Source: Actinomycetota bacterium
GTDB lineage: Bacteria > Actinomycetota > Thermoleophilia > Solirubrobacterales > Solirubrobacteraceae
Direction: 5' to 3'
Length of the DNA: 26,309 nt
Assembly: GCA_005888335.1 (NCBI GenBank)
Contig: VAWY01000174.1
Span: forward strand, 1-26,309
Positions 4,006 to 6,022 of the stretch are shown piece after piece. The position numbers and the translations under genes were made by a program. The notes beneath the pieces were generated by a model. That model was not told the DNA's origin. It was given only the letters and a program-made list of their open reading frames with translations, and did not search any database. The number at the start of each line of letters is the position of its first letter. Within the stretch, counting starts at the first letter, position 1.

Positions 4006-5352
4006 GTGGTCACCGCGATGATGTCCGCAAGGTGAATCAGGCGCGCCGTCGTGCGCGCGACGATCCGCGACTCGGTGTCGTCCTCTGCCTCCGGCAGCGT
4101 CCGCCAGAGCTCGCGCGCCGCCTCGAGGAGCTCGCGGATCTGCCCGAGCTCCTCGACATGCCCGTTGCGCTCGTTCGTCGCGTTGAGCGCGAGGCCGAGC
4201 GCGCCGAAGCCGTCCTGCTGGCGCGAGTAGATGAGGGGCATCGCCATCGACAGGTACTGGTGGATGCGCGCCATGGCCATCGGCTGCCGCAGGACGTCGG
4301 CCCCCTGCGGCTGGGACGGCTCGAGCGGCGCCGCACCGTCCGCGATCCGGTTCGCATTCCCGGCGAGCAACTCGACGATCTGCGCCTCCGTCAATCCGGC
4401 GGAGCGCGCCGACCGGATCCTGCTGGCGCGAGTAGATGAGGGGCATCGCCATCGACAGGTACTGGTGGATGCGCGCCATGGCCATCGGCTGCCGCAGGAC
4501 GTCGGCCCCCTGCGGCTGGGACGGCTCGAGCGGCGCCGCACCGTCCGCGATCCGGTTCGCATTCCCGGCGAGCAACTCGACGATCTGCGCCTCCGTCAAT
4601 CCGGCGGAGCGCGCCGACCGGAGCATCAGCAGCAGCGAGCCGGGCTGACCTCCGTAGGGATAGTCCGATGCGTAGACGATCTGCTCCGGCGGCACGAGCC
4701 GGAAGAAGCTCAGGAGGTCGACGGCACTCCACACGGAGGTGTCGAAGAAGACGCCCGGCGTGCCTGCGAAGTGCCCGGCAAGGCCGGAGAGGTCGGCGAT
4801 GCCGGCGTGCGCGATGATCAGCTGCACGTTCTCGTAGCGCTCCACGAGGTCGTGGAGATGGTCCGCGATCGGCGGCAACCCGCGGCCGCCGTGGATGAGG
4901 ATCGGAACCTTGCGCTCCGATGCGATCGCGAAGACCGGCGCGAGCCGCTCGTCGTCGAGCACGAACTTCTGCGCGCGCGGGTGGAGCTTGATGCCTCGCG
5001 CTCCGAGATCGAGGCAGCGCTCGGCTTCCTCGATCGGGCTCTCGCTCAGGTCGAGACGCACGTACGGGATGAACCGGCCGTTGGACTTCTCGGCGAAGGC
5101 GAGCGTGCGGTCGTTGCCGGCCCGGAAAGAGGGGTGCCGGTCGGGCTCGTCGAGGCAGAAGACGTTGCAGCGCGAGAAGCCGTAGAGGTCCAGCATCGCC
5201 GTGAGCTCTTCCGGTCGCCCGACCATGCCGTCGATGTCGGTTCCGAGGTGGGTGTGCGCGTCGAAGTTGCCCGAAGCCTGCGGAAGCTCCGACTTCAGCT
5301 CCGCCTCGAAGCCGGCAAAGAGCTCGTGCGCCCGTTCGAGCAGTTCGCTCAT
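4002..5352 (-). CDS. Amidohydrolase family (COG2159-like), frame broken by a 205-bp tandem duplication
   Basis: This is a metal-dependent TIM-barrel hydrolase of the amidohydrolase-2 group. Metal and active-site residues are H33 and H35 (DAHTHLG), K122/H124 (GIKLHP), H154 (ILIHGG), H182 (IIAHAG) and D230 (YASDYP). The barrel ends near the typical GNANRI motif, and a helical C-terminal extension follows. A perfect duplication (4213-4417 and 4418-4622) shifts the frame at about residue 311. Removing one copy restores one frame of 381 codons that ends in the GTGA overlap with the [2Fe-2S] gene, which is strong evidence that the undivided gene is the ancestral form. As written, the barrel is intact but the last ~70 residues are lost. 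The start is ATG at 5352 with TAGATT 6 bases upstream. Its position first in the Mo-hydroxylase operon suggests it acts on a substrate or product of that enzyme; this is inference. Confidence 0.85.
4213..4622. repeat. Perfect 205-bp tandem duplication
   Basis: Copy A covers 4213-4417 and copy B covers 4418-4622. Base-by-base reading shows no difference between them. Each begins TCCTGCTGGCGCGAGTAG and ends GCGCGCCGACCGGA. The unit is not a multiple of three, so it changes the reading frame of the amidohydrolase in which it lies. No transposon ends or flanking target duplications are visible. A recent slippage or recombination event and an assembly error are both possible. Confidence 0.93.
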
Positions 5353-5374: not shown

Positions 5375-6022
5375 CTATTCGAACGCGGGTGCCAGCACGC
5401 GGTCGAGGAAGACCCGCTCGGGCACGGCACCGTCCCACTGCGGCACGCCGTTCACGACGATCCTGGGTACCGCCCACACGTCCATCGAGTCGGCGAGCTG
5501 CGGGAACTCGGTCGCCTCGATCCCAGCTGCCCGAACCCGGGGCGAGGCGAGCGCGGTCTTGTACGCCAGCAGCACGGCCGGCGGACAATGCGGTCAGGTC
5601 GGCGTGACGAAGACGTCGATCGCGAGGTCCTGCTCGAGCGCGCCGAGGCGTTCGAGCGACTCCGGCGAGAGGGACGACTCGCGCTTCCCGGCCTCGAGCA
5701 CCGCTCCGATCAGCGAGCCGAGCTCGTAGCCGTGAGGGAGCCCGTAATAGCGGAGCCCGACGTCCTCCCCTTCGGGGAGGATCAGGACCGCGGGAAACAA
5801 CGCGACACCGGGCGGACGGTCTTCGACCCGGTACGACACGTGCTCGGAGAGAGAGGCCAGGCCCTCGACGAGGCGTTGCGTTTCCGCACCGAAGTCGATG
5901 TCGCGCGCGCCGTGCAGCGGCGTCTCCTCAGGGCCGAGCGCAACAAGCAGCTCAACGGGGCGCTCGAGTGCGTCGAGCAGCTCTCGCACCCGTGCCTCGT
6001 CCTCTGGCCGGAAGATCGGCAT
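5375..6022 (-). CDS. Putative selenoprotein: protein disulfide oxidoreductase with UxxC active site (UGA at 5594-5596 read as Sec)
   Basis: This is a two-unit glutaredoxin/thioredoxin-fold protein of the protein disulfide oxidoreductase (PDO) family, 215 aa if UGA codon 143 is read as selenocysteine. The N-terminal unit includes GLRYYGLPHGYE (compare GVRYFGLPAGHE in Pyrococcus PDO, from memory). The C-terminal unit reads DVFVTPT-U-PHCPPAV, where family members have TPTCPYCP, then WAVPRIVVNG with the cis-Pro at P186, then a VFLDRVL helix. UGA occupies exactly the first active-site Cys; C146 is the resolving Cys. No other stop or frame change occurs, and codon use is the same on both sides. A SECIS-like hairpin follows (5559-5588). 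The N-terminal unit lacks its own CxxC. The start is ATG at 6022 with TATAGT 8 bases upstream (leaderless). It probably acts as a cytoplasmic thiol reductase or isomerase. The alternative is a pseudogene with a nonsense mutation at this one codon. Confidence 0.85.
5559..5588 (-). promoter_or_regulatory. Candidate bacterial SECIS stem-loop
   Basis: It is read on the minus strand, downstream of the UGA. UUGU (5588-5585) pairs with ACAA (5562-5559), there is one C/U mismatch (5584, 5563), then CGCCGG (5583-5578) pairs with CUGGCG (5569-5564), and C5577 can close on G5570. The apical loop is CGUGCU with G5575 as its second base. Seventeen bases separate the UGA from this loop. The spacing, loop size and early loop G match the well-known E. 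coli fdhF element as I remember it. SelB would bind this hairpin. Folding was done by eye. Confidence 0.7.

Follow-up and report, generated by a model that had tools for sequence, protein, structure and literature searches.

A predicted selenoprotein gene of the two-unit disulfide oxidoreductase type, with a near-invariant SECIS-type hairpin, in an actinobacterial lineage

Protein disulfide oxidoreductases (PDOs) are recognized by a CxxC motif in each of two units, whereas the N-terminal domain of AhpF has a single active centre, in its second unit, and is re-reduced within AhpF. A selenoprotein family with UGA at the first position of a UxxC motif is already known, as described in the accessible parts of PMC13188914, PMC9312934 and PMC1794560. 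According to the available text of the 2006 report (PMC1794560), the family had two members, named in Carboxydothermus hydrogenoformans and Symbiobacterium thermophilum and scored as two Cys-to-Sec conversions; in 2024 four Asgard sequences were added and an origin from Cys forms was suggested (PMC11227280, available part). The gene described here belongs to this known predicted family and is a well-supported addition to it, not a new family. A first-pass annotation of the same DNA had proposed that the Sec form may be new; that suggestion fails, and the NCBIfam model for the family is itself called PDO_seleno_TRX. It adds a strongly supported actinobacterial lineage to the family, and its value lies in how widely the Sec form occurs and in a putative SECIS that hardly varies within one actinobacterial order.

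The window, meaning the whole 26,309-nt stretch of DNA that was analysed, carries on its minus strand an ATG at 6022, 142 codons, a UGA at 5594–5596, 72 further codons and a TAG stop at 5375–5377 (Table 1), which confirms the first-pass reading of two frames of 142 and 72 codons split by one in-frame UGA. The mechanical ORF list of the window breaks the locus into pieces of 142 and 66 amino acids, just as had been expected of standard annotation. Read-through gives a 215-amino-acid product with TPT-U-PHC-P at residues 140–147, and the UGA does stand at the first Cys of the C-terminal CxxC, the place it had been assigned: this codon encodes Cys in 46 of the best 80 of 291 related loci. Since residues 1–142 contain no cysteine, a redox centre can be sought only in U143 and C146, and the 142-residue piece was rightly described as lacking one. 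We consider it very probable that the two frames are one gene, with the UGA as a predicted selenocysteine codon and a 215-residue, two-unit oxidoreductase with a single U143-x-x-C146 centre as its product.

Table 1. Features of the predicted selenoprotein gene (window coordinates)
Feature	Position	Strand	Basis
Codons 1–142: cysteine-free N-terminal thioredoxin-like unit, and first strand of the second unit	5597..6022	-	ORFs, translation, fold model
UGA codon of residue 143: predicted selenocysteine, the U of U-x-x-C	5594..5596	-	Sequence; TGA in 34 and a Cys codon in 46 of the best 80 of 291 loci
Codon of C146, candidate resolving cysteine of UxxC	5585..5587	-	Sequence
SECIS-type hairpin (putative): 7-bp upper stem at 5564-5583, loop CGUGCU, 4-bp lower stem	5559..5588	-	Folding, codon conservation, model criteria in the accessible part of PMC13188914
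Last 72 codons and TAG: remainder of the second thioredoxin unit	5375..5593	-	Translation, Pfam match, codon-position differences

The Pfam Thioredoxin_3 match runs across the UGA (residues 134–210, 1.1e-12). The best NCBIfam model, TIGR02187 (PDO_seleno_TRX), spans residues 7–210 at 6.5e-50 with the UGA scored as Cys, but the score of 169.4 bits is below the curated cut-off of 185. The earlier description of the joined protein as matching the PDO family end to end therefore holds for the span of the model but not for its threshold, nor for the two-CxxC hallmark, which is absent because the first 142 residues have no cysteine. By the TIGR02187 model the product is a close relative, and the UGA within UxxC and the putative SECIS also agree with membership. 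A scan of the window for further genes with an in-frame TGA gave output swamped by shadow frames.

The AlphaFold2 model of the read-through protein, computed with Cys at 143, has two thioredoxin units and a mean pLDDT of 93.7. Strand E133-139 is the first strand of the second unit, and residues 143–146 sit at the N-terminal end of the second-unit helix, which begins at residue 146. This geometry bears on whether the UGA could be a regulated terminator, with a functional 142-residue product and read-through acting as a selenium-dependent switch between short and long forms. Some termination is generally known to occur at Sec UGA codons; the 142-residue piece, however, has no cysteine and ends after E133-139, so one would expect it to lack redox activity and to fold incompletely, and we regard such a switch as highly improbable. 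Read-through into the UxxC protein is the reading followed below.

The protein search returned 1572 relatives, and the figures that follow rest on the 120 matches listed. Sixty of these are shorter than 165 amino acids. In 58 of them the chain finishes with FVTPT, immediately ahead of the UGA position; the remaining two (P0097 and P0100) continue past the site with Cys. Judging from the proteins, the short relatives among the matches listed probably stop at a UGA. Among the 60 longer matches listed, 58 have Cys at the site and one (P0048) is out of frame there. The last, P0039 (about 62–63% identity), reads TPT-W-PHC; either Cys was truly replaced by Trp in this relative, or the source rendered a UGA as Trp.

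A genome DNA search found 291 related loci, of which the best 80 were retained. Codon 143 in these 80 is TGA in 34, TGC in 30, TGT in 16 and TAA or TAG in none, with proportions that lean towards Cys because one of the two search patterns had Cys at this codon. Such an alignment of homologues had been proposed as a check by the first-pass annotation, and it supports the prediction; chance is not a reasonable account, because TGA occurs in 34 of the best 80 loci and TGC or TGT in the other 46. All of the 11 closest loci among the best 80 (63–85% identity) have TGA, and their records are titled Actinomycetota, Actinobacteria, Actinomycetes or Thermoleophilia except for L004, which is titled Acidobacteriota although its genome (G004) is placed in the order of the nearest genome relative (L001, genome G001); the title may be wrong. 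In a whole-genome search of that order, 19 of 129 genomes matched, with TGA in 18 of 18 full-length genes; the nineteenth match (G299) is partial and stops short of codon 143. No Cys form was seen among these 129 genomes. Sampling 399 genomes of the class gave 27 matches, namely the 19 of the order, one further TGA gene (G117) and seven more distant genes with a Cys codon. Cys forms at 69–79% identity do occur among the listed metagenomic proteins (P0001–P0028), seen as proteins only. One genome (G007; L117/L126) has a second, partial C-terminal copy covering residues 148–211 at 62.5% identity, about 1.4 kb from the full gene.

Just past the UGA, the 30 nt at 5559–5588 fold into a two-part stem whose loop starts 17 nt after the UGA. 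The accessible part of PMC13188914 describes bacterial SECIS elements by a loop of 3–9 nt, a stem of 4–16 bp, a G in the first two loop positions, a spacing of 16–37 nt and an energy of at most -7.5 kcal/mol; the window hairpin lies within these bounds, with a spacing of 17, a 6-nt loop with G second and -14.9 kcal/mol. We regard this conserved hairpin as a putative SECIS that agrees with the published bacterial model. Applied automatically, the SECIS criterion accepts 22 of the 35 sequences with UGA along with 9 of the 46 with Cys; it misses L008 and L010 despite identical hairpin letters, presumably because of competing folds. Folding energy was rejected as stand-alone evidence, since the shuffle z-scores for three cuts (-0.08, -0.79 and -1.76) are unremarkable and too weak in GC-rich DNA.

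Synonymous conservation was scored in the window gene and 18 loci (19 sequences, down to 43% protein identity). Codons 147, 148, 149, 150 and 152 do not vary among the 19 sequences, one sequence departs from the other 18 at codon 153, and codon 151 has two spellings, CTG (16 sequences) and TTG (three). Codons 147–153 are the most synonymously frozen seven-codon stretch of the 64 windows scored, and their score was never reached in 20,000 draws that followed the codon usage of these genes and ignored shared ancestry. Many distant UGA loci have another hairpin, CCGGGC-CGUGC-GCCUGG or a variant, at equal spacing from the UGA. Across the 23 distant UGA loci, 87% of 138 cells are paired, compared with at most 54% when the pattern is slid, and both-side changes are present in only two cells, a value reached by 5 to 7 of 500 shuffles. 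With the better of two stem registers, at least five of six pairs form in 33 of the 35 sequences with UGA and in 15 of the 46 with Cys; GC content explains part, but not all, of this difference, as 9 of 17 Cys sequences with GC of at least 0.62 also make at least five of six pairs. The codons GCC GTG at 149–150 are found in 32 of 35 UGA sequences, 9 of 46 Cys sequences and 7 of 17 high-GC Cys sequences. It is this comparison across relatives, not energy, that makes the case for a putative SECIS convincing.

The selenocysteine machinery was sought in the genomes of the best 80 of 291 loci, with SelB identified by TIGR00475 at its curated cut-off. For tRNA-Sec, the Rfam gathering score did not discriminate, as 60 of 80 genomes exceed it, and a threshold of 55 bits was set after a gap was seen between 52.7 and 57.4, with a hit at 52.7 bits left uncounted. 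Among these 80 genomes, SelB was found in 29 of 34 UGA genomes versus 20 of 46 Cys genomes (p 1.2e-4), tRNA-Sec of at least 55 bits in 27 of 34 versus 19 of 46 (p 6e-4), and one or the other in 32 of 34 versus 22 of 46 (p 6e-6), where the p-values are descriptive because the genomes are interrelated, most are titled as MAGs and incompleteness is likely. SelB over the cut-off and tRNA-Sec of at least 55 bits were both not found in two UGA genomes, G052 and G063; their loci are titled Elusimicrobia (L052) and Rokuibacteriota (L063), and these may be incomplete bins or something else. In the genomes of the 11 closest loci among the best 80, SelA was found in 10, SelB in 10, SelD in 11 and tRNA-Sec of at least 55 bits in nine; in G008, SelA and SelB were not found and tRNA-Sec is present at 58.6 bits. 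Within the order of G001, where SelB exceeds the cut-off in 73 of 129 genomes, the 18 carriers of the gene include 14 with SelB and the other 111 genomes 59 (p 0.04). This link is weak, and because Sec use is common in the order, the control chiefly indicates that the machinery is on hand.

The company of hairpin and SelB also argues against a code change or near-cognate read-through by which the UGA would specify tryptophan or cysteine instead of selenocysteine. Such a reading could draw on P0039 if its Trp is a translated UGA; but UGA terminates 11 of the 18 ORFs checked from the mechanical list of the window, and relatives without UGA carry Cys, not Trp, at 46 of 46 loci among the best 80 of 291. 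We judge it extremely unlikely and retain selenocysteine.

Differences between the window gene and L001, L002 and L003 were counted by codon position on either side of the UGA. Compared with L001, positions 1, 2 and 3 differ in 18, 18 and 60 of 142 codons before the UGA; for L002 the counts are 22/16/55 before and 10/4/24 after, and for L003 24/24/65 before and 12/6/20 after. The part downstream of the UGA thus evolves as coding DNA, under protein-level selection, because its differences from L001 number 5, 2 and 24 at positions 1, 2 and 3 in 72 codons. A decaying gene, with a UGA that arose by nonsense mutation or sequencing error and a tail left as a remnant, is close to refuted by this selection, by the frozen hairpin codons and by the UGA/Cys alternation: TGA occupies the codon in 34 of the best 80 of 291 loci and in all 18 full-length copies of the order of G001, and no other stop type occurs there. 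We give decay a negligible probability. The alternation, the conserved SECIS-type hairpin and the Sec machinery in relatives lend strong support to the Sec-x-x-Cys site first predicted from the window, and the locus is with high probability a selenoprotein gene.

If the UGA is decoded in this way, SelB would bind the hairpin just past it and bring Sec-tRNA-Sec, so that the ribosome does not stop. U143, placed just before the helix that starts at 146, would attack a disulfide or a peroxiredoxin intermediate, and C146 would resolve the mixed selenyl sulfide. A flavoprotein of the thioredoxin reductase type may re-reduce the U/C pair, as in the AhpF N-terminal domain, and the cysteine-free N-terminal unit could serve as a docking or structural unit. 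Having a single redox centre, the protein is expected to resemble the N-terminal domain of AhpF more closely in its action, with electrons probably passing from a flavoprotein reductase through the U/C pair to a peroxiredoxin or disulfide client. No adjoining gene for a partner reductase or client was found in the neighbourhoods of L001–L011, which are largely common to these close loci. They include a gene that we take to be acetyl-CoA-synthetase-like (11 of 11), a presumed Xaa-Pro-peptidase-like gene (10 of 11; not found in L002), a stretch that we assume to be amidohydrolase/2Fe-2S-like (10 of 11; missing from the short contig piece of L008) and, presumably, a molybdenum-hydroxylase-like gene (8 of 11); none is an obvious redox partner. 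Inside the amidohydrolase-like gene of the window lies a 205-bp tandem repeat (4193–4622; 2.1 copies, 97% matches). L001 has two distinct ORFs here, one amidohydrolase-like (383 aa) and one 2Fe-2S-like (146 aa), whereas a single 592-aa ORF runs through both in the window, which is either a true mutation or an assembly artefact.

A tree of 127 rows, built on the N-terminal part (142 columns) and with many open forks, holds 70 stop forms and 56 Cys forms, and parsimony places eight changes between them, at least three forced by well-supported branches. One SECIS-type hairpin is kept almost letter for letter to 43% protein identity, and hairpins with a 17-nt spacing from UGA to loop are also found in Rokubacteria, Acidobacteria and Bacillota copies. 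The Sec form of this lineage may be ancient and vertically inherited, and no recent gain from Cys of the kind scored for the family in 2006 (PMC1794560) and suggested for Asgard archaea in 2024 (PMC11227280), with the close metagenomic Cys copies as secondary Sec-to-Cys replacements; we offer this tentatively, as somewhat less than an even prospect. Were it true, the gene would be a natural series for watching selenocysteine loss. The near-invariant SECIS-type hairpin, together with Sec and Cys sister genes, offers a good natural system for the RNA needs of SelB, and the sister genes also suit the question of why selenocysteine is gained or lost. Annotation cuts the gene at the UGA, and many short copies are annotated "alkyl hydroperoxide reductase subunit AhpF" though they lack the active site; the correct reading restores a redox enzyme in Thermoleophilia-type bacteria. 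No account of the gene in Thermoleophilia was found in the open-access literature on selenoproteins in that group, which is a weak negative.

Compared with known systems, the closest in sequence and fold are the PDOs of Pyrococcus, Aquifex and Aeropyrum (1j08, 1a8l, 2ayt and 2hls). They give the best PDB sequence match (2e-39), and the Pyrococcus entries 1j08 and 1a8l lead the fold matches (TM 0.87), followed by the Aquifex PDO; the 1j08 alignment, however, has CQYC in the N-terminal unit, where the window protein has no cysteine. The AhpF N-terminal domain (1zyn, 1hyu, 4o5q, 6il7 and 5h29) also has two thioredoxin units (TM 0.80–0.85) and likewise a single active centre, in the second unit. 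Its sequence match is weaker (1zyn, 1e-22), predicted Sec replaces Cys in the window protein, and that protein stands alone, ending at residue 215 (TAG) without the C-terminal thioredoxin-reductase-like flavoprotein half. With the known selenoprotein family, as far as the accessible descriptions go, the gene has in common a TIGR02187-type sequence, albeit one scoring under the curated cut-off, UGA as the first position of UxxC and a downstream SECIS-type hairpin. The 2006 members are isolated cases that the available part of PMC1794560 scores as recent Cys-to-Sec gains, whereas the window gene belongs to a Thermoleophilia-type lineage with a near-invariant hairpin.
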